Under the pieces are notes generated by a model. The model had not been told where the DNA came from. It saw only the letters and a program-made list of their open reading frames with translations, and searched no databases. The position numbers and the translations under genes are program-made. DNA of 64,000 nucleotides from Shinella lacus (GTDB taxonomy: Bacteria; Pseudomonadota; Alphaproteobacteria; Rhizobiales; Rhizobiaceae): assembly GCF_010994755.1 (NCBI RefSeq), contig NZ_WHSB02000001.1, positions 558,001-622,000 on the forward strand. The letters are read 5' to 3'. Numbering within the stretch: position 1 is the stretch's first letter; each line of letters opens with the position of its first letter. Positions 17,491 to 46,545 of this stretch are shown here, in pieces.

Positions 17491-17545
17491 ATCGATCTTG
17501 CTTGACGGGCGCTTCGCGTCCGGCTCTCACCTTCGGAGTGTTTCC

Positions 17546-27318: not shown

Positions 27319-27350
27319 GGGGTCTACCGCCTGAAATCGGGAACTTTCTT

Positions 27351-27375
27351 GGCGGGCGGCCTCATGCCGCCCGCC
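27351..27375 (-). other. Intercistronic hairpin between ribitol dehydrogenase and kinase
   Basis: GGCGGGCGGC (27351-27360) / GCCGCCCGCC (27366-27375), a perfect 10-bp stem with 5-nt loop, 6 bases beyond the dehydrogenase stop. No T-run follows on the minus strand, so it is likely a stability or attenuation element rather than a full terminator. Confidence 0.5.
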
Positions 27376-27381
27376 GCTCGC

Positions 27382-28110: not shown

Positions 28111-28135
28111 GGTCTATAACTCCATTCAATATGCG

Positions 28136-29389: not shown

Positions 29390-30207
29390 GCGGTTCCCCC
29401 GGTGCTTTCCTGGACGTGACCGGACTTGCGGTCGGCGCGGCGCGAGACGGAATTGTCCGTGGCGCCCGTGATGGCGGAGACGAGCTCCTGGCTCGATGAA
29501 TCCGGCGTGAAGATGCCGTTGTTGCGCCCCAGCCGGAGCACGACGATGCGGTCGGCGACGGCGCGCACGTCTTCCATGTTGTGGCTGATGATGATGACGC
29601 CGAGGCCGCGGTCGCGCACCCGCTCGATGAGGTTCAGCACCTCCGCCGTCTGCGCAACGCCGAGCGCTGCCGTCGGTTCGTCCAGCATGATGAGCCGCGG
29701 ATTGAGCAGCAGCGAGCGCGCGATGGCGACCGTCTGCCGCTGGCCGCCGGAGAGCGAGGCGATCGGCTCGCGAACAGAGGGAATGCGCGCGGCAAGCTCG
29801 CGCAGCAGCGTCCAGGCCCGAACTTCCATGGCGACTTCGTCGAGCGCCCAGGGCGACATTTCGTGGCCGAGAAACAGGTTCGCCACGACGTCGAGGTTTT
29901 CGCAGAGTGCCAGGTCCTGGAACACCGTGGCGATGCCGAGGTCCAGCGCCTTGGCGGGGCTGTCGAGCGTCACCTGCTCGCCGCAGAACTCGATCGTGCC
30001 GGAGGATGCCTGGTGCACGCCGGCGAGCACCTTGACCAGCGTCGACTTGCCGGCACCGTTGTCGCCGACGAGGGCGACGACTTCGCCGGCCTTCACGTCG
30101 AGATCGATATCCGTCAAGGCGGATACGGCGCCGAAATTCTTGGATATGCCGCTAAGGCGCAGCACGGATTCTCCCTTGGCGGGAATGTTTTGAAGCGTGG
30201 CTGTCAT
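29386..30207 (-). CDS. Sugar/polyol ABC importer ATPase, single-domain
   Basis: A 273-aa ATPase: Walker A GDNGAGKST, signature LSGGQRQ, Walker B LIMLDEP. Most CUT2 ATPases (RbsA) are about 500 aa with two ABC cassettes; this is a single-cassette FrcA-like form, so it likely acts as a homodimer. The C-terminal tail (RRADRKSGHVQESTGG) is extra. It lies between the binding protein and the permease. Confidence 0.9.
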   Translation of the reverse strand: MTATLQNIPAKGESVLRLSGISKNFGAVSALTDIDLDVKAGEVVALVGDNGAGKSTLVKVLAGVHQASSGTIEFCGEQVTLDSPAKALDLGIATVFQDLALCENLDVVANLFLGHEMSPWALDEVAMEVRAWTLLRELAARIPSVREPIASLSGGQRQTVAIARSLLLNPRLIMLDEPTAALGVAQTAEVLNLIERVRDRGLGVIIISHNMEDVRAVADRIVVLRLGRNNGIFTPDSSSQELVSAITGATDNSVSRRADRKSGHVQESTGGTA

Positions 30208-30242
30208 GGCCTCTGGAACCTCTAGGGCTGACCTCGACTGAT

Positions 30243-30277
30243 CCCGTGTCCGGCCGAGTCAAGCGGCCGGACACGGG
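30243..30277 (-). other. Strong intercistronic hairpin downstream of the ribitol binding-protein gene
   Basis: CCCGTGTCCGGCCG (30243-30256) and its perfect complement (30264-30277) form a 14-bp stem with a 7-nt loop, 10 bases past the binding-protein stop and before the ATPase gene. No T-run follows on the minus strand. Such hairpins protect the upstream mRNA so that binding protein is made in excess over ATPase and permease. Confidence 0.65.
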
Positions 30278-30287
30278 AATGGGCAGG

Positions 30288-31334
30288 TTAGTTGATGATG
30301 CCGAGTTTGCGGCAACCTTCAACATATTCGCCGGTGCAGACTTCTTCCGGCTTGTTGATGCCCTTGTCGAAGATTTCGGCCTTGATATTCTCCGCCGTCA
30401 CGACCGCCGGCACGAAAAGCTGCGAGGGCGTTTCGTAGAGCTTGTGGGTCGCTTCCGGGGTTTCGCCCTTGAGCAGCTTCACCGCAACGCCAGCCGCAGC
30501 CGCCGCGACGATTTCGGAGGGCTTGGAGATCGTGTTGTACTGGTCGCCCGAGATGATGAGCTGGAGTGCTGCGATCGTCGCGTCATTGCCGGTGACCGGC
30601 GGCATTTCCTTGACGCCGGCCGCCTTCAGCGCCGCGATCGCGCCGCCGCCCGTGCCGTCGTTCGCCGCGACGATGCCGACGATCTGGTCGCCGAAGCGGG
30701 TGATCTGGCCGGCCGCCCATTCCTGTGCCTTCGGCGGCGCCCAGTCCGGCGTGTCGAATTCGGCGAGCGTCTTGTAGGGCGAGGCGTCGAGCGCGGAGTC
30801 GATACCGTCTCGGATGAGGCCGGCGGCCGCATCGGTCGGCGAGCCGTTGATCTGGAGCACGCCGGCGCCGTCCGCAACGCCCTTGGCCTTCAGGTGGTCG
30901 ACCAGCGACTGCGCGATGGCCTTGCCGATGCCCTGGTTGTCGAAGGAGACGTAGTAGTCGGCCGGCTTGTCGGGGATCGGGCGGTCATAGGCGATGACCT
31001 TGACGTCCTGCGACTGGGCGATCTCGACGAGCGCTGCGGCAGCGGCGGAATCGACCGGGTCGAGCACGACGACCTTGGCGCCCTGTGCGATCACCGAGTT
31101 GAACTGCTGCTGCTGGAGTGCGACGTCGGCATTGGCATTCTGGTAGATCACGGTGCAGCTCGGGCACAGCTTTTCCATCTCGGCCTTGAAGCCGGGATAG
31201 TCGTGCTGCTCGTAGCGGGTCGAGGCCTGGTCGGGCATCAGGAAGGCGACGGTCGCGCCTTCCTGGGCAAGGGCGGCGCTGCCGAGCGACAGGACGAGAC
31301 CGGTCGATGCGAGCAAATAGGTAAGCGTCTTCAT
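30288..31334 (-). CDS. Sugar/polyol ABC importer substrate-binding protein (probable ribitol)
   Basis: A 348-aa periplasmic type I binding protein from the ATG at 31334, chosen because GGAGGAACCCA precedes it and a signal peptide begins there (MKTLTYLLASTGLVLSLGSA, cleavage after ALA). The mature part is a xylose/ribose-type fold (VAFLMPDQASTRYEQHDYPG; VIAYDRPIPDKPADYYVSFD). It is the first gene of binding protein-ATPase-permease-rbtD-kinase; ribitol as ligand is inferred from the operon. Confidence 0.87.
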   Translation of the reverse strand: MKTLTYLLASTGLVLSLGSAALAQEGATVAFLMPDQASTRYEQHDYPGFKAEMEKLCPSCTVIYQNANADVALQQQQFNSVIAQGAKVVVLDPVDSAAAAALVEIAQSQDVKVIAYDRPIPDKPADYYVSFDNQGIGKAIAQSLVDHLKAKGVADGAGVLQINGSPTDAAAGLIRDGIDSALDASPYKTLAEFDTPDWAPPKAQEWAAGQITRFGDQIVGIVAANDGTGGGAIAALKAAGVKEMPPVTGNDATIAALQLIISGDQYNTISKPSEIVAAAAAGVAVKLLKGETPEATHKLYETPSQLFVPAVVTAENIKAEIFDKGINKPEEVCTGEYVEGCRKLGIIN

Positions 31335-31523
31335 TGGGTTCCTCCACGGTTGATTTTTCAAGTTCACGTTCGCCGGCGTCCTCAAGCCGACAAGGGCGAC
31401 AGGACCGACGCTTTCCGCGCACCAAAGCGCGCAGATCATCGTTCGCTGCGGGGATTCCGCAACGTCCGGTTCGTCGATGCTCCGTCTGACTCCTCCCTTG
31501 GGTCAGCCTTGCTGTTCAGGCAA

Positions 31524-31559
31524 CTTCATCGATGGAGCATGCTTGCTCAATCGATGAAG
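31524..31559. promoter_or_regulatory. Two LacI-type operators in tandem, forming a long inverted repeat
   Basis: CTTCATCGATGGAG (31524-31537) and CTCAATCGATGAAG (31546-31559) are each near-palindromes centred on ATC|GAT, as LacI-family sites are. Their centres are 22 bases apart, two helical turns. Together they make a 16-bp inverted repeat with one mismatch and a 4-base spacer. They lie in the divergent region between the ribitol operon and the LacI gene. Confidence 0.65.
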
Positions 31560-31569
31560 CAAGAATTGC

Positions 31570-31587
31570 CACCAATCGCCATTGGTG
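31570..31587. promoter_or_regulatory. CACCAAT-N4-ATTGGTG inverted repeat
   Basis: A perfect 7-bp inverted repeat with a 4-base spacer, 30 bases upstream of the LacI start. It differs from the ATCGAT sites, so it may belong to a second regulator or be an autoregulatory site. Confidence 0.45.
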
Positions 31588-31617
31588 TCAAGGTGGCTCT
31601 CGAAACGGAGATGAAAT

Positions 31618-32637
31618 GTGAACCGAACAACGCAGACGAAAAGGACGACCATCTATGATCTGGCGGAGCTGGCGGGCACCTCGGCCAGCGCCGTGAGCGC
31701 CGTTCTGAACGGCAACTGGAAGAAGCGTCGCATCAGCGCGAAGCTCGCCGAAAAGATCACCAAGCTCGCCGAGGAGCAGGGCTACGCACTCAACATGCAG
31801 GCGAGCGTGCTGCGCCGGGACCGGTCGAAAATCATCGGCATGATCGTGCCCAAATACGACAACCGCTATTTCGGCTCGATCGTCGAACAGTTCGAGGCGC
31901 TGGCGCGCGAACGCGGCCTGTTTCCGATCATCACCTGCACGATGCGCGACCCGGCGCTGGAGCTGGAGGCCGCGCGCGCCATGCTGTCCTATCAGGTCGA
32001 TTGCCTGATCGCGACCGGCGCCACCGACCCGGACCGCGTCATGGAACTGTGCGCTGCCGCCGGCGTGCGCACCATCAACCTCGACCTTCCCGGCGCCCGC
32101 GCGCCCTCCGTCATCTCCGACAATTACGGCGGCGCGCTGGAGCTGACGCGCAGGGTGCTTGCCAATTGCGAGAAGGAATATGGCGAGAAGACCCCTCTCC
32201 TCTTCGTCGGCGGTCGCGGCACGGACCACAACACGATGGAGCGCGTGCGCGGTTTTCGCGACGCCCATGCGGAGGCCGGCGTCGCCGTCGACGACACGCT
32301 CGTGCAAACCGTCGGCTACGCGCCAGAAAAGGCGGAAAGCGCCATGCGGCAGCTTGCCGAACGCATGAGCCCGCTGCCGCGCGGCATGTTCGTCAACTCT
32401 ACCATTTCGCTGGAAGGCGTGATGCGCTGGATCCGCCGCTCCGGCCACTATGCCGACCGCGTGCCGCAACTCGGCTGCTTCGACTGGGACCCCTTCGTCG
32501 CCATGCTCGGCGACCACATCGAGATGGTGCGCCAGGACGTGCCGAAAATGCTGGAAGCCGTCTTCGGCATCATCGATTCCGGTGACACGGAACTCACCGT
32601 GGTGCAGATCCCGCCGATTGTCGAGAAGATGGGCTGA
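31618..32637 (+). CDS. LacI-family transcriptional regulator of the ribitol operon
   Basis: A 339-aa LacI repressor starting at GTG 31618, with GGAG 8 bases upstream. The HTH is N-terminal (TTIYDLAELAGTSASAVSAV, then LAEKITKLAEEQGY), followed by a type I periplasmic-binding-like effector domain (DRSKIIGMIVPKYDNRYFGS). It is divergent from the ABC/ribitol genes and very likely represses them through the tandem operators, with ribitol or D-ribulose as inducer. Confidence 0.87.
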   Translation: MNRTTQTKRTTIYDLAELAGTSASAVSAVLNGNWKKRRISAKLAEKITKLAEEQGYALNMQASVLRRDRSKIIGMIVPKYDNRYFGSIVEQFEALARERGLFPIITCTMRDPALELEAARAMLSYQVDCLIATGATDPDRVMELCAAAGVRTINLDLPGARAPSVISDNYGGALELTRRVLANCEKEYGEKTPLLFVGGRGTDHNTMERVRGFRDAHAEAGVAVDDTLVQTVGYAPEKAESAMRQLAERMSPLPRGMFVNSTISLEGVMRWIRRSGHYADRVPQLGCFDWDPFVAMLGDHIEMVRQDVPKMLEAVFGIIDSGDTELTVVQIPPIVEKMG

Positions 32638-32739
32638 TCCGGCGGCTGGCCTCGCGCGCGCATCGCGACAGGTCGATATCGAGGCAAAACAGCGCTCGCA
32701 AGAGATGCAATCAGCCTTTTATTTATGCAAAGAAAACAA

Positions 32740-32768
32740 TTGACTACAAAGCAGCCGTATTCTAGCTT
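32740..32768 (+). promoter_or_regulatory. Candidate promoter for the amiC-amiR operon
   Basis: TTGACT (32740-32745) lies 17 bases before TAGCTT (32763-32768). The -35 is good and the -10 is weak, as for a regulated promoter. It is placed upstream of the leader hairpins and terminator at 32782-32843. The rest of the gap after the LacI stop (32638-32739) is AT-richer and shows no gene. Confidence 0.4.
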
Positions 32769-32781
32769 TTTCTTCGAAAAC

Positions 32782-32843
32782 GGCAGACGCTGCCACGGCA
32801 AATGAGCCCCGATACCGCATGACCTGCGGTGCGGGGTTTTTTT
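32782..32843 (+). terminator. Leader with small hairpin and strong terminator upstream of amiC (likely antitermination site)
   Basis: Hairpin GGCAG-ACG-CTGCC (32782-32794) is followed by a terminator: CCCCG (32807-32811) pairs with CGGGG (32832-32836), inner ACCGCA (32814-32819) with TGCGGT (32825-32830), then seven T. It lies more than 120 bases before the start of amiC and does not end the LacI gene closely (170 bases away). With an ANTAR regulator encoded just downstream, this reads as a transcription-attenuation leader. The two loops are not the canonical ANTAR hexaloops. The remaining 32844-32969 holds no clear element. Confidence 0.7.
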
Positions 32844-32969
32844 GTTTCGGCACTCGGCCGACCTCATGGATCGAGGTTGAAGCGTGGACGGGAACCGGGC
32901 GATGCAGCCATGGGAAATGCCGATGAACGCGAAGCGGTGCGGGCAGCCAGTGTCGCGGGGGCAGTCGCG

Positions 32970-34130
32970 ATGAAGCGCGAGACGGTGCCGGTTTCCATCC
33001 TCTATTCGACGACCGGGGCCTATGCGGACGTCGGCCGGCAAGCCGTCGCCGGCGCGTTTGCGGCGATATCCGAGATCAATGCGGATGCCGGCTTCTCCTT
33101 CCGCATCGAGCCGAAGATCGACGACCCTGCCGGACGGGCGGAACGCTACGCACTCCTGTCCGAGGCGGCGATCCGCCAGCACGGCTGTCGCCATGTCATC
33201 GGCACGATTACCTCATGGAGTCGCAAGGACGTGCTGCCGGCGATCGAGCGTCATGGCGCGCTTCTCTGGTATGCTTTTCCCTATGAAGGCTACGAGGCGA
33301 GTGACAGCGCCATCTATCTCGGCGCCTGTCCCAACCAGCACCTGCTGCCGCTGTTCGACCACGTTCTTCCGCGTTATGGGCGCCGCCCCTTCATTGTCGG
33401 CTCGAACTACATCTGGGGCTGGGAAATCAGCCGCATTGCGCGCGAGATGACCGAGGCGGTCGGTGGGCAGGTGGTGTCGGAGCGCTTCGTCCCGCTCGGC
33501 TCCGTCGAGGTCGATCACCTGATTGCGGAAATCGCGCAGAAAAAGCCCGACTTCATCCTGAGCAACCTCGTCGGGGAATCGGCCACAGCCTTCCTGGCCG
33601 CCTATGACGTGCTGCGCGGCGGAGATCCCTCCGCCCCGCCGATCGTCGCCTGCAACCTTTGTGAGATCGAGCTCGGCGGCCTCACACCTTCGGCCTCTGC
33701 CGGGCACATTTCCGCTTCACCCTATTTCAACCGGCTGGATACCGCCGAAAATCGCGATTTCAAAGCGCGCATGGCACTTCGCCACGGCAGCGACCACCGG
33801 CTGACGACGCCTTTCGTGGCCGCCTATATGAGCGTGTCGATCCTCGCCCAGGCCATGCAGGATGCGGCGACCGATGCGCCGGACGCGATCCGCCGCGTCG
33901 TCACCTCCCGGCTCTTCGATACGCCGCTCGGCCCCATCGCCATCAATCCGCGCACCCACCATGCGGCACTGCGCCCGCACCTGGCGATCTCGAATGCGGA
34001 TGGCGAATTCGAGATCTTCCACAGCGCTGCAAGCCCGGTCGAGGCCGATCCCTATCTGGTGCATTCGCTTGGCCAGCCGCTCGCCGCCGACGGACCTGCG
34101 ACCGACACCATGCTGAAGGTGATCAAATGA
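32970..34130 (+). CDS. amiC: AmiC-like amide sensor (periplasmic-binding fold, cytoplasmic)
   Basis: A 386-aa type I periplasmic-binding-fold protein without a signal peptide, starting at ATG 32970 (MKRETVPVSILYSTTGAYAD), which aligns with the start of Pseudomonas AmiC; an ATG at 32910 would add 20 residues. Matching blocks include AERYALLSEAAIRQHGCRHV, LLWYAFPYEGYEASDSAIYL, CPNQHLLPLFDHV and FIVGSNYIWGWE. In Pseudomonas AmiC holds AmiR inactive until an amide binds. Here amiR follows with an ATGA overlap, so the same sensor-antiterminator pair is expected. Confidence 0.87.
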   Translation: MKRETVPVSILYSTTGAYADVGRQAVAGAFAAISEINADAGFSFRIEPKIDDPAGRAERYALLSEAAIRQHGCRHVIGTITSWSRKDVLPAIERHGALLWYAFPYEGYEASDSAIYLGACPNQHLLPLFDHVLPRYGRRPFIVGSNYIWGWEISRIAREMTEAVGGQVVSERFVPLGSVEVDHLIAEIAQKKPDFILSNLVGESATAFLAAYDVLRGGDPSAPPIVACNLCEIELGGLTPSASAGHISASPYFNRLDTAENRDFKARMALRHGSDHRLTTPFVAAYMSVSILAQAMQDAATDAPDAIRRVVTSRLFDTPLGPIAINPRTHHAALRPHLAISNADGEFEIFHSAASPVEADPYLVHSLGQPLAADGPATDTMLKVIK

Positions 34131-34717
34131 GCCGCGCCGACCGCCCTTCCCTGGCGACCTGGCGCGCCGTCATCCTGCACCGGGAGCACCCTTCCGTGGA
34201 TGCCCTGAAGCGGCAGCTCGAAATGCTGCATATCCGGGTCACCGTCGTCTGGCCGCAGATCGACGAGGCGGATGTGGCAAGCGATATCGTCTTCTTCGAT
34301 GCGGATATGGGCCATGACGGCCAGTTTCCCTGGCCACCCGGATTTGCGCCCATGCCGATGATCGCGCTCATCGGCTCCGAGGCGCCCGGCCGCATCGAAT
34401 GGGCTCTGGCGCAGGGCTCCAACGCGCATCTGCTCAAGCCGATCGGCTCCACCGGCGCCTATAGCGCGCTGCTGATCGCCACGCACGCCTATCAGGTCGC
34501 GCGCAGCCAGGCGGAGGATATACGTGCGCTCGAAGACAGGCTGCGCCAGCGGCCCATCGTCGTACGGGCGATCCTGCGGCTCATCCAGCAGGAGCGGCTC
34601 GACGAGGCCGGCGCGTGGAAGCGCCTGCGCAAGATCGCCATGGACTGGGGCATGACCATCGAGGAGACGGCGGACGCCATCTGCCGCGACGACCGGCGCA
34701 CGAAAAGCGGCGCCTGA
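34127..34717 (+). CDS. amiR: AmiR-like ANTAR-domain antiterminator
   Basis: A 196-aa protein: pseudo-receiver domain at about residues 12-125 (WRAVILHREHPSVDALKRQL; DIVFFDAD), a coiled linker, then an ANTAR RNA-binding domain at about 135-190 (LRQRPIVVRAILRLIQQERL, AWKRLRKIAMDWGMTIEETA). The receiver lacks the full phospho-acceptor pattern, as in AmiR, which is controlled by AmiC binding rather than phosphorylation. The likely RNA target is the terminator leader at 32782-32843. Confidence 0.88.
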   Translation: MSRADRPSLATWRAVILHREHPSVDALKRQLEMLHIRVTVVWPQIDEADVASDIVFFDADMGHDGQFPWPPGFAPMPMIALIGSEAPGRIEWALAQGSNAHLLKPIGSTGAYSALLIATHAYQVARSQAEDIRALEDRLRQRPIVVRAILRLIQQERLDEAGAWKRLRKIAMDWGMTIEETADAICRDDRRTKSGA

Positions 34718-34743
34718 AGGACAATGGAGAAGGAGCATGACGC

Positions 34744-35637
34744 GTGTCGATCACTGAAGGCTATGCCCCCTACGGGGACTACAAAACCTGGTACCGCATC
34801 ACGGGGGATCTCGCCTCCGGCAAGCCGCCGCTCATCGTCGCCCATGGCGGACCGGGCTGCACGCATGACTATGTCGACAGTTTCAAGGACATAGCCGCGA
34901 CCGGCCGCGCCGTCATCCACTACGACCAGGTGGGCAACGGCAAGTCGACCCACCTGCCGGAAAAGGGCGGGGACTTCTGGACAGTCGATTTCTTCCGGAC
35001 CGAACTGCACAACCTGATCGACCATCTCGGCATCCGCGACGCCTATTGCCTGCTCGGCCAGTCCTGGGGCGGCATGCTTGGGGCGGAGTTCGCCCAGGAG
35101 CGCCCCGCGGGCCTGAAGGCGCTGGTCATCGCCAATTCGCCGGCTGCCATGTCCACCTGGGTATCGGAAGCCAACCGCCTGCGCGAGGCTTTGCCGCCGG
35201 AGGTTCAAGCGACGCTGCTGCGCCACGAACAGGCCGAAACCACCGACAGCGCGGAATATATGGAGGCGACGGAGGTCTTCAACCAGCGCCATGTCTGCCG
35301 CGTCGTGCCCATGCCGCCGGAGGTCAAGCGCACCTTCGATGCCATTGCCGACGACCCGACCGTCTACCACACGATGAACGGCCCGAACGAGTTCCACGTC
35401 ATCGGCACGATGAAGGATTGGTCGATCGTCGGCCGGCTTTCGACCATCGAAGCCCCGACTCTGCTGATCTCCGGCCATTTCGACGAGGCGACGAAAGCCT
35501 GCGTGCAGCCCTATGCGGACGAGATTCCGGACGTGCGCTGGCGCATCTTCGAACAGTCGAGCCACATGCCGCATGTCGAGGAGCGCGAGGCCTGCATGGC
35601 CGAAGTCGCCGGCTTCCTCGACGAAAAGGCACCCTGA
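34744..35637 (+). CDS. Prolyl iminopeptidase / L-amino acid amidase-type alpha/beta hydrolase
   Basis: A 297-aa hydrolase from GTG 34744, with AAGGAG 8 bases upstream. HGGPGC oxyanion loop and nucleophile elbow GQSWGGMLG (Ser) are those of the S33 prolyl-iminopeptidase family; the late His is in [12 protein letters not shown]. The family includes aminopeptidases for N-terminal Pro and amino-acid amidases. In an operon with an amide sensor, a peptide importer and an acetamidase, either activity fits: cleavage of imported dipeptides or amino-acid amides in the cytoplasm. Confidence 0.83.
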
Positions 35638-35712
35638 CCATTCCAGAAGAAGAAACCGCGCGCCCCAAGGGCGCGATCACCGACCACCAGAAAACCAGAG
35701 GGAAACCGTATC

Positions 35713-37410
35713 ATGACGATATATCTGAAACCTTCCATCCGCCGCGCCGGTCTTCTCGCCGCCGGCATCCTGCTTGCGCAGACCGCGCTCTCCAGCACCG
35801 CTCTCGCCGATGAGCGCGCCGACCTGATGGCCAAGCACCGCGGCGGCACGATGACGCTCGCGGCCGTCTCGGCCGCCGGCACGATCGATCCGATGATCAA
35901 CTACACCGCCCAGTTTTGGCAGATCTACCAGATGACCTATGACGGCCTCGTCAAGTTCAAGCAGGCCGGTGGCACCGATGGCTTCGAGATCGTGCCTGCG
36001 ATCGCCGAGGAAATCCCCCAGCCGACCAATGACGGCAAGACCTATGTCTTCAAGATCCGCAAGGGCATCAAGTTTTCGAACGGCAAGGACGTGACGCCGT
36101 CCGACGTCGTCGCCTCGTTCCAGCGCATCTTCAAGGTCAAGGGCCCGACCACCGGCAGCTTCTACAACGGCATCGTCGGCTCCGACAAATGCATCGCGGA
36201 TGCCGCGACCTGCACGCTCGAAGGCGGGGTCGTGGGCGACGATGCCGCCGGCACGGTGACGATCAACCTCACGGCGCCGGATTCGGAAATCTTCTCCAAG
36301 CTTGCCGTTCCACACGCCTCCATCCTGCCGGCCGATGCGCCGCTGGCCGACGCCGGCACCACGCCGATCGCCGGCACGGGCGCCTATTATTTCGAGAGCT
36401 ACAATCCCACCGAACAGCTCGTCATGAAGCGCAATCCGCACTTCAAGGAATGGAGCGCGGATGCCCAGCCGGACGGTTATGCCGACGAGATCATCTACAA
36501 GTTCGGCCTGACCGAAGAGGCGATGATCAACGCGATCATCAACGGCCAGATCGACTGGATGTACGACACGCCGCCCTCCGACCGCCTGCCGGAAATCGGC
36601 GCGAAATATGCAAGCCAGATCCATATCGACCCGCTGGCCGCCTTCTGGTACGCGCCGATGAACACCAACCTCGCGCCCTTCGACAACATCAAGGTGCGCC
36701 AGGCGGTGAACTACGCGCTCGACCGCGACGCGCTCGTCGGCCTGTTCGGCGGCGAGGTTCTTGCGCAACCGACCTGCCAGATCCTGCCGCCGGACTTCCC
36801 CGGCCATGTGGATGATTGCCTCTACACCACGGAGGCGAGCCCGGAATGGATCGGCGCCGACATGGAGAAGGCCAAGCAGCTCGTCGAGGAATCCGGCACG
36901 AAGGGCCAGAAGGTCACGGTGATCGCCGAGGACAACGCCACCTCGCGCGGCGTCGGCACCTATATCCAGAGCGTGCTGTCGGAGCTCGGCTATGACGCCT
37001 CGATGAAGGCCGTCTCGCCGAACATCCAGTTCACCTATATCCAGAACACCAGCAACAACGTCCAGATCAGCATCTCGCAATGGTACATGGACTATCCGGC
37101 AGCATCGAACTTCCTCAACGTGCTGCTCTCCTGCGCATCGTTTACGCCGGGCAGCGACGCCTCGATCAACATTTCGGGCTATTGCAACAAGGATCTCGAT
37201 GCCAAGATGAAGGAAGCGATGACCCTCGCTCTGACGGATGCCGATGCGGCGAATGCCAAATGGGCGGAAGTCGATAAGGGCTTCATGGAACAGTCGCCGA
37301 TCGCACCGCTCTTCACGCCGAAAAGCGTGAACTTCACCTCGGCACGGCTCGGCAACTATCTGTTCAACAAGCAGAACCGCTGGATCACCTCGCAGTCCTG
37401 GGTGAAGTGA
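35713..37410 (+). CDS. ABC importer substrate-binding protein, dipeptide/oligopeptide (DppA, family 5) type
   Basis: A 565-aa periplasmic binding protein; signal peptide MTIYLKPSIRRAGLLAAGIL with cleavage after ALA. SBP_bac_5 features: GTIDPMINYTAQFWQIYQMT, PAIAEEIPQPTNDGKTYVFK, IRKGIKFSNGKDVTPSDVVA. GAGGGAAACC precedes the ATG. It is followed by a strong hairpin, then permeases and two ATPases. It binds a peptide or amide-bearing solute; the exact ligand is unknown. Confidence 0.9.
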   Translation: MTIYLKPSIRRAGLLAAGILLAQTALSSTALADERADLMAKHRGGTMTLAAVSAAGTIDPMINYTAQFWQIYQMTYDGLVKFKQAGGTDGFEIVPAIAEEIPQPTNDGKTYVFKIRKGIKFSNGKDVTPSDVVASFQRIFKVKGPTTGSFYNGIVGSDKCIADAATCTLEGGVVGDDAAGTVTINLTAPDSEIFSKLAVPHASILPADAPLADAGTTPIAGTGAYYFESYNPTEQLVMKRNPHFKEWSADAQPDGYADEIIYKFGLTEEAMINAIINGQIDWMYDTPPSDRLPEIGAKYASQIHIDPLAAFWYAPMNTNLAPFDNIKVRQAVNYALDRDALVGLFGGEVLAQPTCQILPPDFPGHVDDCLYTTEASPEWIGADMEKAKQLVEESGTKGQKVTVIAEDNATSRGVGTYIQSVLSELGYDASMKAVSPNIQFTYIQNTSNNVQISISQWYMDYPAASNFLNVLLSCASFTPGSDASINISGYCNKDLDAKMKEAMTLALTDADAANAKWAEVDKGFMEQSPIAPLFTPKSVNFTSARLGNYLFNKQNRWITSQSWVK

Positions 37411-37431
37411 GGCTCACCTGAAAATGCCTCA

Positions 37432-37459
37432 GCGGGCGGCAAGGCCCTTTGCCGCCCGC
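37432..37459 (+). other. Intercistronic hairpin downstream of the peptide binding-protein gene
   Basis: GCGGGCGGCAA (37432-37442) / TTGCCGCCCGC (37449-37459), a perfect 11-bp stem with a 6-nt loop and no T-run after it. It is placed as in the ribitol and polyamine operons, between binding protein and the next transporter gene. Confidence 0.6.
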
Positions 37460-37487
37460 ACGCCGCATTCAGCCGATCAGGAAACAG

Positions 37488-38516
37488 ATGACCGATATCA
37501 CAGAGGCCATACGCGTCCATGCGCCAGCCGTCTCCTCCCGCCCATCGTCGGGTCCATGGCGACGCGCCTGGCATATCCTGAAGCGCGACCGCGCGACGCT
37601 GCTCGCAGCCGCGGTCTTCGTGCTGATCATCCTGTCGACGTTGGCGGCACCGCTCTATGCCCGCTACGTCTCCGGTACCGATCCGTTCCGCTCCAATCTC
37701 AGCGCGCGCATCATGGTCGACGGCAAGCGCGTGAAGGTGATGCAGGCCTCGACCGAGGGGCTTGGTCTCGGCGTCACGCCGATCGGGCCGACCTGGGGGC
37801 CGCAATATCTGCTGGGCGCCGACACGCAGGGCCGCGATGTCGCCGCCCGCCTGCTCTATGGCGGGCGCAACTCGCTGCTGATCGCCGCCTCCGCCACCGT
37901 CATCTGTCTCTGTCTTGCCGCCTTGGTCGGCATTTCCGCCGGCTTCTTCGGCGGCTGGGTGGACAAGATCCTGTCGCGCATCCTCGATATTCTCTGGGCG
38001 TTTCCGGTCTACCTGCTGGCGATCTCGCTCTCCATCGTGCTCATTTCGCAGGGTATCGTCATCGGGCCGATAGAGATCGGCTCGGATAGCCTGCTGCTGC
38101 CGATCTTCATCATCGGCATCATCTACGTGCCCTATGTCGCGCGCCCTTTGCGCGGGCGCGTGCTGTCGTTGAAACAGAGCGAATTCGTGCTGGCGGCGCG
38201 CGGGCTCGGCATTCCGGCCTGGCGCATCCTGCTGCACGATATCCTGCCCAATGTCTCGACCATGCTCATCGTCTTCGTGCCGCTGATGATGGGTCTCAAC
38301 ATCATCACGGAATCCTCGCTCTCCTTCCTGTCGATCGGCGTGCAGGCACCGGATGCGAGCTGGGGCACCATCATCCAGGACGGCCAGACGCTCCTCTACA
38401 CGCGGCCCGTCGTGGCGCTGGCGCCCGGCATCGCCATCGTCCTGACGGTGCTGTCTCTCAACGTCTTGGGCGACAGCCTGCGTGACGCGCTCGATCCGCG
38501 CACGAAACTGGTCTGA
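37488..38516 (+). CDS. Peptide ABC importer permease, DppC type
   Basis: A 342-aa membrane protein from the ATG at 37488 (CAGGAAACAG just before). It has an N-terminal DppC-type leader (WHILKRDRATLLAAAVFVLI), a large periplasmic loop, and the coupling EAA-like segment (FVLAARGLGIPAWRILLHDI). An insert of about 50 residues after the first helix (SNLSARIMVDGKRVKVMQAS) is longer than in typical DppC. It comes before the DppB-type gene, the reverse of the common order. Confidence 0.88.
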   Translation: MTDITEAIRVHAPAVSSRPSSGPWRRAWHILKRDRATLLAAAVFVLIILSTLAAPLYARYVSGTDPFRSNLSARIMVDGKRVKVMQASTEGLGLGVTPIGPTWGPQYLLGADTQGRDVAARLLYGGRNSLLIAASATVICLCLAALVGISAGFFGGWVDKILSRILDILWAFPVYLLAISLSIVLISQGIVIGPIEIGSDSLLLPIFIIGIIYVPYVARPLRGRVLSLKQSEFVLAARGLGIPAWRILLHDILPNVSTMLIVFVPLMMGLNIITESSLSFLSIGVQAPDASWGTIIQDGQTLLYTRPVVALAPGIAIVLTVLSLNVLGDSLRDALDPRTKLV

Positions 38517-38527
38517 GGAGGCTTTTC

Positions 38528-39499
38528 ATGTTTTTCGCCATCCTGCAGCGCCTTGGCCAGATGCTCTTCGTGATGTTCGGCATCTCGGCGCTCGTCTTCC
38601 TCATCTTCTTCGCCACCCCCGGCTCCGACCCCGCCGCCCGCCTTGCCGGCCGCAATGCCTCGCAGGAGACCGTCGAGGCCATCCGCAAGGAATTCGGCTT
38701 CGACCGGCCGCTGCCCGTTCAATACGTCGTCATGATGAAGCGGCTCTTCGTGACGCAGGACCTCACCTCCTTCGTCAACCGCGGCTATCGCATCGTGCCG
38801 GCGGTCGTCGCCGCCGCGCCCGTCACGATCTCGCTGGTTGCGGGGGCCGCCATTCTCTGGATCGTCGGCGGCATCTTCGTCGGCGTGATCGCGGCGCTGA
38901 CGCGCGACACATTGATTGATCGCGGCCTGATGGCACTCGCGCTGATCGGCGTGTCCATGCCGGTCTACTGGCTCGGCGAGGTGATGAACCTGATCAGCCA
39001 GAGCCGGTTCCACGACACCTGGATGTTCTCCTGGGTGCCGGCGCTCGGCTACAAGCCGCTGATGGAAGACCCTGTCGGCTGGTTCAAGACGCTGGTCATC
39101 CCATGGTTCACGCTGGCGGCCCTCTATATCGGCATTTACGGGCGCGTGCTCCGCGCCAACCTCGTCGAGGCCTATCAGGAAGACTTCATCCGCACCGCCC
39201 GCGCCAAGGGCCTGTCCCCGGCGCGCGTCATGGTGCGCCACGCGCTGCGCACTTCGCTCATTCCCTTCGTCACCATGTTCGGGTTGGATTTCGGCGTGCT
39301 GGTCGGCGGCGCGGCCTTACTGACGGAGGTCGTCTTCGGCCTCAACGGCGTCGGCCGCCTCACCTACCAGGCGCTGCTCAATCTCGACCTGCCGATGATC
39401 CTCGGCACCGTGATGTACGCCTCCTTCTTCGTCGTCGTCGCCAATGCGCTAGTCGACGTGGTCTATGTGCTGATCGACCCGCGGGTCAGGGGAAACTGA
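38528..39499 (+). CDS. Peptide ABC importer permease, DppB type
   Basis: A 323-aa membrane protein with the DppB N-terminus (LQRLGQMLFVMFGISALVFL, FFATPGSDPA) and coupling motif (FIRTARAKGLSPARVMVRHA). GGAGG precedes the ATG. It pairs with the DppC-type permease to form the channel. Confidence 0.9.
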   Translation: MFFAILQRLGQMLFVMFGISALVFLIFFATPGSDPAARLAGRNASQETVEAIRKEFGFDRPLPVQYVVMMKRLFVTQDLTSFVNRGYRIVPAVVAAAPVTISLVAGAAILWIVGGIFVGVIAALTRDTLIDRGLMALALIGVSMPVYWLGEVMNLISQSRFHDTWMFSWVPALGYKPLMEDPVGWFKTLVIPWFTLAALYIGIYGRVLRANLVEAYQEDFIRTARAKGLSPARVMVRHALRTSLIPFVTMFGLDFGVLVGGAALLTEVVFGLNGVGRLTYQALLNLDLPMILGTVMYASFFVVVANALVDVVYVLIDPRVRGN

Positions 39500-39502
39500 C
39501 GC

Positions 39503-40528
39503 ATGGTGCAGCAGGACAAACCAATTCTTCTAGACGTCGCCGGGCTGTCGGTCTCCTTTGCCAGCGATCGCGGCCTGGTGCAGGCCGTGCGCGACGTGTC
39601 GTTCCGTGTCCACGAGGGCGAGATCCTCTCCATCGTCGGTGAATCCGGCTCCGGCAAGTCGGTGACGCTGCTGTCTCTTCTCGGCCTGCACGACCGGAAG
39701 GCCACCCGCGTGGAAGGCTCCGTCTCCTTCCGTGGCAAGCCGATCCTCGACCTGCCGGCGAGCCAGATGCGGGCGATCCGCGGCAGGGAAATCGGCCTGA
39801 TCTCGCAGGATCCGATGACGGCGCTGACGCCGGTCTATACGATCGGCTGGCAGATCGCCGAGCAGATCCGTGCCCACGAAAACATATCGGCCCGCGCCGC
39901 CCACCGCCGCGCCATCGAACTGCTCGGCGAGGTCGGCCTGTCCAATCCCGGCGAAGCGGTCGACCGCTATCCGCATCAATTGTCCGGTGGTATGCGCCAG
40001 CGCGCCGTCATCGCCATGGCGCTCTCCTGCAATCCCGTCCTCCTCGTCGCCGACGAGCCGACCACGGCGCTGGACGTAACCGTCCAGGCTCAGGTGATCG
40101 ACCTGCTTCTGCGCCTGCGCAAGGATTTCGGTTCCGCCATCATCCTCATCACTCACGACATGGGCGTCGTGGCCGAAGTCGCCGAACAGGTGGCGGTGAT
40201 GTATGCCGGGCGCATCGTAGAGCGCGGGCGCACCGAAGAAATCTTCTCGGCGCCGCTCCACCCCTATACCTGGGGCCTCATGGCCTCCATTCCGCCGCTC
40301 ACCGGGCCGCGGCTCACCAAGCTGCGCTCGATCCCCGGCATGCCGCCGACGCCGGAAACCGTTCCGGACGGCTGCGGCTTTGCACCGCGCTGCGCCTTCG
40401 CCCGACCCATCTGCGCCGAGCGACCGCCATTGCAGAAGGTGGGCGGACAGGCAGCGCTCTGCGTCATCGACGACGCCGAACGGCCTGCGCTCCGGCGCGC
40501 CGCCCTTCCGCAGGAGGAACTCGCATGA
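39503..40528 (+). CDS. Peptide ABC importer ATPase, DppD type
   Basis: A 341-aa ATPase: Walker A GESGSGKS, signature LSGGMRQR, Walker [13 protein letters not shown], and the C-terminal Cys-containing oligopeptide-transporter extension ([20 protein letters not shown]), which in this family binds an Fe-S cluster. It overlaps the next ATPase gene by 4 bases. Confidence 0.92.
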
Positions 40529-41514
40529 ACGCCGAAATGCCGGTCCCAAAGCCGCTGCTCACGGCGCGCAATCTCACCAAGAACTTCGTCGTCGGCAAGA
40601 CCATCCGTCCCGGCTCGGGCCGCGTGCTGCATGCGGTCGATGCCATCGATCTCGACGTCTATCCGACCGAGACACTCGGCCTCGTCGGCGAATCCGGCAG
40701 CGGCAAGTCCACGCTCGGCCGCTGCCTCACCCGGCTCTACGACATCACGGCCGGCGACCTCACCTTCGACGGACAGGACATCGCCAAGGCAGACGCGGCC
40801 GCCCTGAAGCCGGTGCGGCGCAAGATGCAGATGATCTTCCAGGACCCATCGGCCTCGCTCAATCCGCGCCGGCGCATCCGTGACATGCTCTCCGAGGTGC
40901 TGCACGTCCATCGCATCCGCGAAGGCGCCGCGGTCGAGGAGCGATTGCAGGAACTCATGGAACTCGTCGGCCTGCGCCGGGAATATCTCGACCGCTATCC
41001 GCACGAATTCTCCGGCGGCCAGCGCCAGCGCATCGGCATTGCGCGCGCACTCGCCGTGGAGCCGAAGCTGATCGTCGCCGACGAACCGGTCTCTGCCCTT
41101 GACGTTTCGGTGCAGGCGCAGGTGGTGAACCTCTTCGACGAGCTGCGCGAACGGCTGAACCTCACCTATGTCTTCATCGCCCACGACCTCGCCGTCGTGC
41201 GCCATGTCTCGACGCGGGTGGCGGTGATGTATCTCGGCTCGATTGCCGAAACGGGCGAGACGGACGCGCTCTACGCAAAGCCGCACCACCCCTATACGCG
41301 CGCCCTGCTGTCAGCCATTCCGCAGCCTCACAACCGGGGAAAACGCGAGCGAATCCTGCTCGCCGGCGAAATTCCAAGTCCGCTCTCGCCGCCGCCCGGC
41401 TGCAAGTTCTCCACCCGCTGTCCCTATGCCAAGGACATCTGCCGCGAGCAGCGGCCGCAACTCGCCGCCATTGAGACGGGCCGCAAGGTCGCCTGCCATT
41501 TTCCGCTGGACTGA
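40525..41514 (+). CDS. Peptide ABC importer ATPase, DppF type
   Basis: A 329-aa ATPase: Walker [11 protein letters not shown]-loop region MQMIFQDPSASLNPRRRI, signature FSGGQRQR, Walker B LIVADEPVSALD, and the C-terminal Cys extension (GCKFSTRCPYAKDICREQRP). The start overlaps the previous stop (ATGA). It acts as a heterodimer with the DppD-type ATPase. Confidence 0.92.
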   Translation: MNAEMPVPKPLLTARNLTKNFVVGKTIRPGSGRVLHAVDAIDLDVYPTETLGLVGESGSGKSTLGRCLTRLYDITAGDLTFDGQDIAKADAAALKPVRRKMQMIFQDPSASLNPRRRIRDMLSEVLHVHRIREGAAVEERLQELMELVGLRREYLDRYPHEFSGGQRQRIGIARALAVEPKLIVADEPVSALDVSVQAQVVNLFDELRERLNLTYVFIAHDLAVVRHVSTRVAVMYLGSIAETGETDALYAKPHHPYTRALLSAIPQPHNRGKRERILLAGEIPSPLSPPPGCKFSTRCPYAKDICREQRPQLAAIETGRKVACHFPLD

Positions 41515-41548
41515 CCCTCAGCATCCGGAAAGCCAGAAAGGAAATCCG

Positions 41549-42493
41549 ATGTGCGTCACCTGCACCCACACCATCCACCGCGCCCGGCATCATTTCGGCT
41601 GGAACCGGGATTTTGAGCCGGCAATCGTGGCGAAATCCGGCGAAACGATCCTGTTCGAATGCCTCGATTCCTCCGGCGGCCAGATCGGCAACGATGCGAC
41701 GCTCGAAACCCTGACGGCGCTCGATTTCGCCCGCATCAACCCGGTCACCGGCCCGGTCTACGTGGAAGGGGCTGCACCGGGGGACGCCCTGAAGATCACG
41801 CTGCGCGCCTTCCATCCCTCGGGCGCGGGCTGGACTGCCATCATCCCCGGTTTCGGCCTGCTCGCCGACCAGTTCAAGGACCCCGCACTCCACGTCTGGT
41901 CCTACGATTCCGGCACGCTGGCGCCTGCCGCTTTCGGGCCGAAAGGGCGCGTGCCGCTGAAACCCTTCGCCGGCACCATCGGCGTTGCTCTTGCCGAACC
42001 GGGCCTGCACTCCGTGGTGCCGCCGCGCCGGGTGGGCGGCAACCTGGATATCCGCGACCTCTCCGCCGGCGTGACGCTCTACCTGCCGGTCGAGGTGGAG
42101 GGTGCGCTGCTTTCCATCGGCGACACCCATGCCGCGCAGGGCGACGGCGAAGTCTGCGGCACGGCGATCGAAAGCCGCATGGATGTCGAGGCGACGATCG
42201 AGCTCGTCAAGGATGCCCGCCTGCCCGCGCCGCGCTTCACCACGCCCGGCCCGGTCACCCGCCATCTCGACGGCGCCGGCTATGAAGTGACCACCGGCAT
42301 CGGCCCCGACCTGATGACGGCCGCGCGCGAGGCCGTCATGCGCATGGTCGATCTCCTCTCCGCTGAACACGGCCTCGATCCCAACGACGCCTACATGCTT
42401 TGCTCGGTCTGCGCCGATCTCAGGATCAGCGAGATCGTCGACCTGCCCAACTGGGTGGTGAGCTTCTATTTCCCACGCATCGTCTTCGACTAG
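41549..42493 (+). CDS. Acetamidase/formamidase family protein
   Basis: A 314-aa FmdA/AmdA-family hydrolase from the ATG at 41549, with AAAGGAAATCC upstream. Features: [38 protein letters not shown], and [15 protein letters not shown], as in formamidases. It hydrolyses formamide, acetamide or a related short amide to ammonia and acid. It is the last gene of the amiC-amiR operon, so an amide is both the sensed signal and the substrate. The stop overlaps the convergent TetR gene by 4 bases. Confidence 0.9.
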
Positions 42494-43152
42494 AAAGAAG
42501 CAGCTGCCACCCTGGCGTCGAAACCCGTTATTGCCACATGCGCAACCGCTTCCAGCTCCGCGCGCCCAGCCCCGTCGCGTGCCAGAATGGACATGCCGAA
42601 CTGGACGGTCTGGATGAAGCGCGCCAGTGCCGGAATGTTGGCGGTGATGGGAACTTCACCGTCCGCCACGGCTTGTTCCAACCGCGCCTCGATACGCTCG
42701 AAGGTGACGGCACGGGCGGCGCGGACGAGTTCCCCAAGTTCCAGATGGCCCTGGCTGCCGACGGACGACAAGGCCACCATGCAGCCGGTGGGAATGTCTT
42801 CGACACAGCCGGTCAAGACCGCGGCCGAATCCAGCAGGAACGCCGAGATCGCTTCGCGCGCCGTTTCCGCGCGCTGGAATTTGCCCCAGACGTAAGCCTC
42901 GTAACTCTCACGATAAAACCCCACCGCTTCTACATAGAGCGCTTCCTTTGAACCGAAGGCGGCATAGAGGCTGGGTGAGCCGATCCCCATCGCCTCGGTC
43001 AGGTCCGTCATCGACGTGGCCTCGAAGCCCTTGAGCCAGAAGAGCCGGGTCGCCTGCGCCAACGCGGCCTTGCGATCGAAGGCGCGTGGGCGCCCCCGCC
43101 CGCGGGACGGCGAGGGTCCAATGACTTCAGGGGCTTGGTCCGATTTCTGCAT
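42490..43152 (-). CDS. TetR/AcrR-family transcriptional regulator
   Basis: A 220-aa repressor of the TetR subgroup with a basic Arg/Pro-rich N-terminus ([19 protein letters not shown]) and HTH at about residues 27-75 ([20 protein letters not shown]). The C-terminal domain has two Cys ([14 protein letters not shown]). It is divergent from an SDR gene; repeated TGATCGA motifs lie between them. It likely represses the SDR. Confidence 0.86.
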
Positions 43153-43270
43153 CGATCATTATATAAACCTCCCCAGCCGTTTCGACAACTCTCCGCATTT
43201 ATTGTGCTGATCGATACATAAATACCTTGACGCGCTGCGCCCGCATCCCTAGCTAATTCTATGTCGATCA
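43152..43270. promoter_or_regulatory. Three TGATCGA motifs in the TetR/SDR intergenic region
   Basis: ATCGATCATTA (43151-43161; reads TAATGATCGAT on the other strand), TGATCGAT (43208-43215) and TCGATCA (43264-43270; TGATCGA on the minus strand) recur at the two start-proximal edges and in the middle. TTGACG (43227-43232) is a possible -35 for the SDR. The motifs are candidate half-sites for the neighbouring TetR protein. Confidence 0.4.
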
Positions 43271-43289
43271 CTACAGAAAGGTTTGATCC

Positions 43290-44030
43290 ATGAGTGAATT
43301 GTCTGGAAAGCGCGCGCTCGTCACGGGCGGATCGCGTGGCATCGGTGCCGCGATCGCATTGGCGCTGGCTGAAAAAGGGGCGGATGTAGCGATCACCTAT
43401 GAACGCGCCGCCGATCGCGCCGCGGAGGTCGTGCGCGAAATCGAGGAGAAGGGCCGCAAAGGGCGGGCCATACAGGCGGACAGTGCCGATCCCGCCGCGG
43501 TAAAGCGTTCCGTACAGGAGGCGGCCGAAGCGCTGGGTGGTCTCGACATCCTCGTCAACAATGCTGCCATCGCGCTCTACGATACGATCGCCAATATCAG
43601 CGCTGAGCAAATCGATGCGCTGCTGGGCGTCAATGTGCGTTCGCCCATCCTCGCCTCGCAGGCCGCCATTCCCTATCTTCAAGCGGGCGGTCGTATCGTC
43701 ACGATCGGTTCGGCCGGTGCGGAACGCATCGTCGGCGATACCGGCACCGTGTATTTTATGACGAAATCCGCGCTCCACTCGTTCAACCGGGGCCTTGCGC
43801 GCGAACTCGGCCCGCGGGATATCACCGTCAACCTGGTGCAGCCGGGCTCGACGAACACGGACATGAACCCCTCCAACGGCGAATTTGCCGACTTTCAACG
43901 TGCCCTGATCCCGCTTGGCCGGTATGGCGCGCCGGAAGACGTGGCCGCCGCCGTCGCCTTCCTTGCAAGCCCTGCCGCCCGCCACATCACCGGAACGATC
44001 CTCACGGTGGATGGCGGCATGACCACCTGA
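43290..44030 (+). CDS. SDR-family oxidoreductase (FabG-like)
   Basis: A 246-aa classical SDR: TGGSRGIGAAIALALAEKGA cofactor motif, NNAAI in place of the usual NNAG, catalytic YFMTK with the upstream Ser (IGSAGAER). It ends in the typical LTVDGGMTT. It is divergent from the TetR gene. The specific ketone or aldehyde substrate is unknown. Confidence 0.85.
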   Translation: MSELSGKRALVTGGSRGIGAAIALALAEKGADVAITYERAADRAAEVVREIEEKGRKGRAIQADSADPAAVKRSVQEAAEALGGLDILVNNAAIALYDTIANISAEQIDALLGVNVRSPILASQAAIPYLQAGGRIVTIGSAGAERIVGDTGTVYFMTKSALHSFNRGLARELGPRDITVNLVQPGSTNTDMNPSNGEFADFQRALIPLGRYGAPEDVAAAVAFLASPAARHITGTILTVDGGMTT

Positions 44031-44033
44031 TTG

Positions 44034-44061
44034 AAAAAATCCCCCCGTCAAAAACGGGGGG
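44034..44061 (-). terminator. Bidirectional rho-independent terminator (SDR / gtr cassette)
   Basis: CCCCCCGT (44041-44048) / ACGGGGGG (44054-44061), a perfect 8-bp stem with loop CAAAA. On the minus strand it is followed by ATTTTTT (44034-44040), so it terminates the gtr-like genes well; it also sits 10 bases past the SDR stop and may serve that gene, though the plus side has no clean T-run. Confidence 0.85.
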
Positions 44062-44093
44062 AATATCTTGGGAGACGGCGGCGCGTCATCAAG

Positions 44094-45548: not shown

Positions 45549-45579
45549 TTTACGCCCCTTGTCACAGCCGGCTCACCGG

Positions 45580-46545
45580 TCAGACTTTTTGACGAAATCC
45601 TCCGGGAAACACTGGTCCGCTTTGATTGGTGGCCGACTTCCGCACGATGTACCGAGGCCGCATTTTCGTTTCCCGGTATATTCTGCCGATATACTCGCCG
45701 ATAATGCCGATGCCGAGGATCTGGACACCGCCAAAAAACATGATCGCGGCAAAAATCGAGGGATAGCCCGGCACGCTATTGCCGAAGAGGAGCTTGTCCA
45801 GAACGATCCATGTGCCGTAGATGAAGGCGAGCGTTGAGATGAACAGGCCGATATAAGTCCATATTCTCAAGGGCATGGTCGAAAAACTTGTAATGCCTTC
45901 GAGCGCCAGGTTCCACAGCTTCCAGCCATTGAACTTCGTCGTTCCGGCAACGCGCCGGGCTCGTCTATATTCAACGACTTCGGTACGCCCGCCGACCCAG
46001 GAGAGAAGGCCCTTCATAAAGAGGTTTCGCTCCGGCAGGAGCAAGATTTCATCGACGATCGGACGGGATATCAGCCGGAAGTCACCGACATTCTCTTCGA
46101 TCCTGGTGTCGCTGATGAGGTTGTGAATAGCGTAGAATGCCTGCGCCGTTCTTCGTTTTACAAAATTGTCGCTGGACCTGTCCTGGCGCTTGGCAAGCAC
46201 GACTTCCGCACCGTGCCTCCATTTTTCCAGCATTTTCGGGATGAGCTCGATAGGATCCTGCAGATCCACATCGATGGGGATGACCGCATCGCCTTTTGCG
46301 TAGGCCAGGCCCGCAAAGAGCGCCGGCTCCTTTCCAAAATTGCGCGTGAAGTCGACGAGCTGGACCAGCGGGTCGGTGCTCATGATCTGCTGGACGATTT
46401 CCGCAGAATGATCCCAACTGCCGTCATTGACGAAAACGATCTCGATCGACTCGTTCTTCAACGCATCCTGCGACCTGACGGCCGCGTAGAAGATCGGGAT
46501 CGTCGCCTCTTCATTGTAGATCGGCACAATCAGGGAAATAGACAC
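45580..46545 (-). CDS. gtrB: GtrB-like bactoprenol glucosyltransferase (GT2)
   Basis: A 321-aa GT2 with an N-terminal cytoplasmic transferase domain ([44 protein letters not shown] with the DxD) and two C-terminal membrane helices. Segments such as [29 protein letters not shown] and [20 protein letters not shown] agree closely, from memory, with enterobacterial GtrB/YfdH. It transfers glucose from UDP-glucose to undecaprenyl phosphate on the inner face of the membrane. Confidence 0.9.

Follow-up and report, generated by a model that had tools for sequence, protein, structure and literature searches.

The locus raises the question of what an AmiC-AmiR pair controls when it stands, behind a leader terminator, at the head of a large transport operon, and which compounds such an operon serves. 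In the stretch of Shinella lacus DNA analysed here (64,000 nucleotides; the window), a single-strand operon at 32740-42493 comprises a promoter, a leader terminator, amiC-amiR, a gene for an S33 hydrolase, a SBP5-type ABC importer and an FmdA-type amidase gene (Table 1). The original prediction, made from the letters alone, had placed a promoter-like TTGACT and a seven-T terminator before amiC; both are present (32740-32768 and 32806-32843). Its one-strand gene set of overlapping amiC and amiR, hydrolase, importer and amidase was upheld by domain searches and by the 4 nt (34127-34130) that the amiC and amiR reading frames share. AmiR consists of an AmiR_N pseudo-receiver and an ANTAR domain, both above their cut-offs. 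Upstream, a LacI-type gene on the same strand ends at 32637. Judging from sequence comparison, we consider the locus to be probably (roughly 60%) an AmiC-AmiR antitermination operon for the uptake and hydrolysis of amino-acid amides, perhaps also of simple amides, as a nitrogen source.

Table 1. Features of the operon, with coordinates in the window and the evidence for each
Feature	Position	Strand	Evidence
Promoter TTGACT, 17 nt, TAGCTT	32740-32745 / 32763-32768 (32740..32768)	+	pattern in 39/40 leaders
Leader hairpin P1, GGCAG-ACG-CTGCC	32782..32794	+	hairpin at equivalent place in 40/40 leaders
Leader hairpin P2, GGC-AAATGA-GCC, antiterminator candidate	32797..32808	+	120/120 cells paired
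Intrinsic terminator: stem 32806-32837, seven T 32837-32843	32806..32843	+	folding, scan, covariation
amiC-type sensor, Peripla_BP_5 (375 bits)	32967..34130	+	domain search
amiR-type antiterminator, AmiR_N and ANTAR	34127..34717	+	36.0 and 45.1 bits, cut-offs 27 and 27.3
S33 alpha/beta hydrolase of the proline iminopeptidase family, putatively acting on amino-acid amides	34744..35637	+	TIGR01250; 7a6g
SBP_bac_5 solute-binding protein	35713..37410	+	domain search; best solved relative 8upi, 198 bits
OppC/DppC-type permease (BPD_transp_1)	37488..38516	+	domain search
OppB/DppB-type permease (BPD_transp_1)	38528..39499	+	domain search
OppD/DppD-type ATPase (ABC_tran with oligo_HPY)	39503..40528	+	domain search
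OppF/DppF-type ATPase (ABC_tran with oligo_HPY)	40525..41514	+	domain search
FmdA_AmdA-family amidase (197 bits), accessory	41549..42493	+	domain search; same subfamily as type B operons

The core of this operon, which we call type A, recurs at 39 of the 67 named loci examined. A widespread sister layout, type B, has the order amiC-amiR-permeases-SBP-FmdA-ATPases.

On their own, the promoter and leader of the window have modest statistics, as fold z-scores and generic-scan counts indicate. Positions 32770-32850 folded alone give z = -4.76, and none of 200 shuffles is equally stable, while the longer stretch 32770-32970 is unremarkable (z = -1.26, 20 shuffles equally stable). The generic scan gives no excess of promoter-like sites (2, with 2.0 expected by chance), and the promoter at 32740-32768 is missing from its list; terminator-like sites number 13 against 7.9 expected (sd 3.5). 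Comparison across loci gives the promoter stronger support. The pattern TTGAC-N16-19-TA is found in 39 of 40 orthologous leaders of 360 nt each (shuffled mean 1.6, maximum 6 of 40), and no second promoter of this pattern occurs in the 127 intra-operon gaps (0/39, 0/39, 0/40 and 0/9), which are shorter than the leaders. Among the 37 leaders in which the spacing between the -35 element and P1 is measurable, 33 have 40-43 nt. The promoter is off its usual place in leaders L068, L069, L071 and L117, and L089 is the leader in which the search of all 40 did not find the pattern.

The 40 type A leaders, from the 39 loci and the window, were aligned with none left out. In every one, two hairpins precede the terminator and the second is mutually exclusive with it, the 3' arm of P2 being the start of the terminator's 5' arm. 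For the terminator, 96.1% of cells are paired, changes on both sides occur in 7 of 11 pairs, and compensated cells number 38, where shuffling gives 11.2 on average and never reaches 38 in 500 rounds. P2 is nearly invariant: all 120 cells are paired, and one pair is G-C in 38 leaders and A-U in two, L087 and L089; their hosts are related, and the change may reflect one event. In L089 the terminator 3' arm is also altered, matching the A-U change. P1 is found in 40/40 type A leaders (shuffled mean 2.7, maximum 8), and among those of type B its rule is passed by only 14 of 35 (shuffled mean 2.2, maximum 7); its loop is 6 or 7 nt, and it is partly misaligned, with 75.8% paired. Taken jointly, the pairing statistics of P1 and P2 are scarcely above those of shuffles, with 87.9% of cells paired versus 87.2% (50/500 as high), no excess of pair types (500/500) and a covariation score of 0.038 versus 0.024 (9/500).

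The dual-hairpin rule for ANTAR targets, as worded in the available portion of PMC3369931, describes two stem-loops of at least three pairs, the second overlapping the terminator, with hexanucleotide loops carrying A at position 1 and G at position 4. The type A leaders resemble the RNA of EutV and NasR in that account by having two small stem-loops, of which the second reaches into the 5' arm of the terminator that follows (40/40 leaders follow the stem-loop part of the rule), and by the C-G closing pair of P2 and the A at loop position 1. They differ from it in that position 5 of the P2 loop is G or A and position 4 is never G, the P1 loop is not strictly six, and the linker is 2-4 nt as opposed to 5-12 nt in E. 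faecalis. The A1/G4 hexaloop is lacking: in type A P2 loops, A1 occurs in 39/40, G4 in 0/40 and G5 in 28/40, and G4 is found in 0/35 type B leaders. Inspection by eye likewise gave no A1/G4 reading of the leader. A search of the window at Rfam gathering scores returned 0 matches.

How closely is this leader tied to amiC-amiR? A covariance model (R1) trained on the 40 type A leaders has one match in its own genome at 6e-13; the next, at 0.155, is without AmiC beside it. That scan scored 150 of 8345 first-look candidates, and nine further matches (E 0.155 to 8.6) were rejected as second targets, the neighbouring stretches examined holding no AmiC. Across 151 genomes of the family, R1 gave 20 matches at E <= 1e-3, of which 19 lie immediately 5' of amiC-amiR. 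Seven of these are training leaders, the window included; the other 12 comprise two leaders of type A and ten of type B, and each of these ten precedes an operon in full type B order. The remaining match, L147, lacks a neighbouring AmiC and lies behind a frame judged by eye to encode a membrane transporter; it is a false positive. At 43 non-A loci with amiC-amiR, R1 matched 22 at E <= 0.01 and 13 more weakly (up to 5), leaving 8 with no match.

The leader terminator might alternatively be the mere 3' end of the LacI gene, or a constitutive attenuator independent of AmiR. The gene's end at 32637 on the same strand would agree with this, as would the scan, in whose list no further + strand terminator separates the gene from the leader. 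However, the recurring promoter pattern intervenes, the leader is kept in relatives, none of which has a co-oriented LacI gene upstream, and the genome-wide matches precede amiC-amiR in 19 of 20 cases, making this explanation highly improbable.

Given the leader's conservation, covariation and genome-wide specificity, an AmiC-AmiR antitermination switch ahead of a large importer/hydrolase operon is a well-supported reading. The same grounds favour the original prediction that the known switch governs a larger unit, although the amidase included in that unit is accessory. Transcription would start just 5' of the leader. Without inducer, AmiR would be held by AmiC, the leader would fold as the terminator and RNA polymerase would halt before amiC. 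An amide on AmiC would free AmiR to bind the two leader hairpins, stabilising P2 (GGC-N6-GCC). With the start of the terminator's 5' arm then taken up by P2, the entire operon, including amiC-amiR, would be read through. The importer would take up the amide, and the S33 hydrolase, in the window also the FmdA amidase, would free ammonia.

Gene content bears on which amides these may be. The S33 hydrolase is encoded in 40/40 type A operons, whereas the FmdA-type amidase occurs in 10 of the 39 assessable ones and is missing from the other 29; among the matches listed, no substitute gene in these 29 recurs beyond near relatives. The window's FmdA falls among the type B amidases in a tree (62-83% identity), and scores above the cut-off of Pfam FmdA_AmdA and below that of the FmdA formamidase model NF045496 (122.8 of 500). 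The acetamidase/formamidase-type gene originally noted is present in the window, yet not the operon's heart. The best PDB-sequence match of AmiC is 1pea, P. aeruginosa AmiC (196 bits), and its nearest solved kin are that amide sensor and urea-binding proteins. At the P. aeruginosa Thr106 position, Phe occurs in 40/40 type A proteins; the residue is L, V, A, C, T or R in the 28 other AmiC proteins compared. Both this Phe and the frequent lack of FmdA beside a constant S33 gene render quite unlikely a classical operon for short aliphatic amides, in which acetamide, formamide or propionamide would be both inducer and substrate and the S33 hydrolase would play an incidental part, even though AmiC-AmiR, the FmdA_AmdA kinship and a comparable Klebsiella operon, with acetamidase activity in lysates of the strain (accessible part of PMC13209695), speak for it.

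The S33 hydrolase scores 257.7 bits against TIGR01250 (cut-off 167.65) and falls below the cut-offs of equivalogs NF045945 and NF045948. Its best solved relative is 7a6g (477 bits), which we take to be an L-proline amide hydrolase; the depositors of 7a6g, 3wmr, 3nwo and 1mt3 named them proline iminopeptidase. The structure 8upi, presumably of an L-amino-acid-amide binder (MeAmi_SBP, from an amidase-associated ABC system), matches the window's own solute-binding protein at only 198 bits, as against 931 and 845 bits for two from type B operons. Amino-acid amides seem the likeliest substrates. The same switch could instead serve di- or oligopeptides, with the S33 enzyme a true prolyl iminopeptidase and AmiC sensing a peptide breakdown product, as the SBP_bac_5/Opp-type importer and the iminopeptidase name of TIGR01250 and of the solved relatives would suggest. 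This seems unlikely, since the solute-binding protein approaches none of the NCBIfam peptide-binding equivalogs (DppA 77 of 1005, OppA 103 of 947 bits), AmiC's closest solved kin point to amides or urea, and the accessory gene encodes an amidase.

An amino-acid-amide operon of this kind looks like a variant of a known switch rather than a new kind of system. It shares AmiC/AmiR homologues, a leader terminator and antitermination logic with the P. aeruginosa amidase (amiE) operon, as described in the available portion of PMC3369931, and differs in having its leader before amiC itself, the importer and S33 hydrolase downstream, no nitrilase-type AmiE, and Phe at AmiC position 106. Type B operons, found on Klebsiella and Enterobacter plasmids and in Rhodobacterales and Rhizobiales, likewise have AmiC, AmiR, a related leader, a peptide-type ABC importer and an FmdA-type amidase, but they lack the S33 hydrolase, have another gene order with FmdA central, and carry a different solute-binding protein (28% identity between the window's and one of type B). 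The accessible part of PMC13209695 reports a Klebsiella plasmid with amiC-amiR, a cluster-5 ABC transporter and an acetamidase, and an annotated Enterobacter plasmid has a comparable gene set. The suggestion that joining an amide sensor to a peptide ABC system was undescribed therefore fails for the general combination. Literature searches, with subscription journals mostly outside their coverage, returned no account of an S33 hydrolase gene within an AmiC-AmiR operon.

Tentatively, AmiC-AmiR and leader may form a separate module with its own RNA code (P2 A1...G5, not A1...G4), set before varied amide importers and hydrolases in alphaproteobacteria, with type A a dedicated nitrogen pathway for prolinamide-like amino-acid amides. 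If so, the 40 type A and 35 type B leaders would offer naturally varied material for testing how ANTAR proteins read RNA, with the specific prediction of G5, not G4, and many rhizobia associated with plants and soil would be expected to draw nitrogen from amino-acid amides. Across 20 other Shinella genomes, AmiR identity is never above 48%; the 13 congener loci examined, with the weakly matching G017-G019 left out, comprise 12 of type B, none of type A and one of another kind (G009). The S. lacus genome also encodes a second ANTAR protein (C24, 78 bits).

Antitermination by AmiC-AmiR is a textbook mechanism. In the window, which comes from a 7.04-Mb genome, the layout foreseen by the original prediction was borne out: promoter, seven-T terminator, overlapping amiC and amiR, hydrolase, importer and amidase all lie on one strand.

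Features of the operon and its surroundings (window positions)
Feature	Position	Strand	Remark
Operon	32740-42493	+	promoter to amidase
Promoter	from 32740	+	TTGACT-17-TAGCTT; start of operon
Leader		+	terminator, then seven T
Hairpin P1	32782-32794	+	before terminator
Hairpin P2	32797-32808	+	antiterminator candidate
amiC, amiR		+	mutual overlap 4 nt
Hydrolase		+	S33/proline-iminopeptidase family
ABC importer		+	five genes, SBP_bac_5-type
Amidase	to 42493	+	FmdA_AmdA family; operon end
LacI-type gene			upstream of operon
TetR gene			downstream of operon, convergent
Cyclase-domain protein	16913-18760		adenylate/guanylate cyclase catalytic domain
Sugar-type ABC importer, FGGY kinase	25687-32637	-	divergent LacI-type regulator; ordinary
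TetR gene, short-chain dehydrogenase gene	42490-44030		divergent
Terminator-like site	44062-44040	-	strong; within 44040-46545, after DUF6056 protein and glycosyltransferase 2 genes

A single scan of named genomes with AmiC yielded 67 loci, whose gene content was assigned by tblastn with the window's genes. The window's order, amiC-amiR-hydrolase-SBP-C-B-D-F (solute-binding protein, two permeases, two ATPases; type A), occurs in 39 of them, or 40 counting the window, one locus (L053) ending before the last ATPase. A sister layout lacking the hydrolase, amiC-amiR-C-B-SBP-FmdA-D-F (type B), accounts for 24 of the remaining 28; the other four are one rearranged locus (L099) and three incomplete ones (L100, L113, L115). 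In type A, FmdA is present in 10 of the 39 operons assessable (L053 excluded), nine with FmdA terminal and one (L087) with it between amiR and hydrolase. When 54 FmdA proteins are placed in a tree, type A members fall among those of type B, the A/B label requiring 3 changes with the mislabelled L062 counted in; this position agrees with, without proving, recruitment of type A FmdA from type B. In Rhizobium sp. PP-CC-3A-592 (L062:1513-18638) operons of both types adjoin in opposite directions, and in Rhizobium leguminosarum Ta9k (L120:13433-14653) a type B operon carries an annotated IS256 transposase where the SBP gene is expected.

All 40 type A leaders were aligned; the promoter pattern is present in 39 (shuffled mean 1.6) and P1 in 40 (shuffled mean 2.7); P1 arms belonged to the pattern that cut the leader segments, and this P1 count was made separately without requiring P1. 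The -35 element lies 40-43 nt from P1 in 33 of the 37 leaders measurable (L082, L086 and L089 were not) and 113-120 nt in L068, L069, L071 and L117, where the promoter match is away from its usual place. P2, located by a pattern search that no leader failed, reads GGC-N6-GCC (AGC-N6-GCT in two). As the terminator 5' arm opens with the GCC of P2, the two structures are mutually exclusive. Covariation is strong in the terminator, with 7 of 11 pairs covarying, 38 compensated cells and a score of 0.290 (0.137 shuffled, 0/500 shuffles). It is weak for P1 and P2 together: P2 is nearly invariant (one pair varies, in 2 cells), a loop of either 6 or 7 nt throws part of P1 out of alignment, and percent paired and pair types are no better than in shuffles.

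The covariance model trained on type A leaders, R1, matched the window leader at 6e-13 in its own genome, where the next-best match scored 0.155. Among 151 genomes of the family, 19 of 20 matches at E <= 1e-3 directly precede an amiC-amiR pair, and one is a false positive. Training leaders, the window's among them, make up seven of these 19, and the remaining 12 (two type A, ten type B operons) mean that 12 of 13 matches outside the training set lie where the hypothesis predicts. Sensitivity is lower than specificity: two genomes (G022, G036) carry type B yet went unmatched under the strict filters of that search. R1 was also run on 43 amiC-amiR loci that are not type A, of which 28 are named and 15 come from relatives; the stretch before amiC was matched in 22 at E <= 0.01, in 13 more at E <= 5 and in eight not at all. 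A weak match on Agrobacterium fabrum C58 pAt (L121:9849-9910, 18.9 bits, E 0.088), flanked by an ANTAR gene on one side and a cluster of urt-like transporter and nitrilase genes on the other, is possibly a further target type. A very weak one on Pantoea plasmid pSOD02 (L118:4617-4673, 15.1 bits, E 0.94) directly precedes a cytosine permease-nitrilase-amiC-amiR row.

PMC3369931 reports that in EutV, NasR and AmiR targets the two hairpins each have a hexanucleotide loop carrying A1 and G4. The P2 loop shares A1 (39/40 type A leaders; 35/35 type B) but never has G4 (0/40; 0/35) and mostly has G5 (28/40; 22/35); the type B pattern itself asked for a purine at A1, and for L084 the P1 loop was taken. 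Either the A1/G5 loop is a variant code or P2 is drawn one register off; the C-G closing pair favours the register as drawn.

Clues to the substrate come from three proteins. The nearest solved structure to the window AmiC is P. aeruginosa AmiC, whose Thr106, we assume, lines the pocket; this position, changed in PDB entry 1qnl, is Phe in all 40 type A AmiC proteins and L, V, A, C, T or R in 28 others. The S33 hydrolase is nearest to 7a6g (477 bits), which we take to be an L-proline amide hydrolase, then to 3wmr (386 bits). Against 8upi, presumably the L-amino-acid-amide binding protein MeAmi_SBP, the two type B SBPs tested scored 931 (L091) and 845 bits (L119), and the window SBP 198 bits. 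Taken together, these relationships make amino-acid amides the likeliest substrate class. The type A importer is most likely a separate one, with a specificity related to that of type B.

The view that an amide sensor joined to a peptide ABC system was undescribed must be withdrawn, as PMC13209695 already reports amiC-amiR together with acetamidase and an ABC transporter of cluster 5. Our search of the open-access literature found no description of the type A operon containing an S33 hydrolase, the leader family common to both types or the A1/G5 loop, which, as far as that literature tells, are new. Plasmid records that encode AmiC- or UrtA-like proteins number 1370, of which 843 are from Klebsiella.
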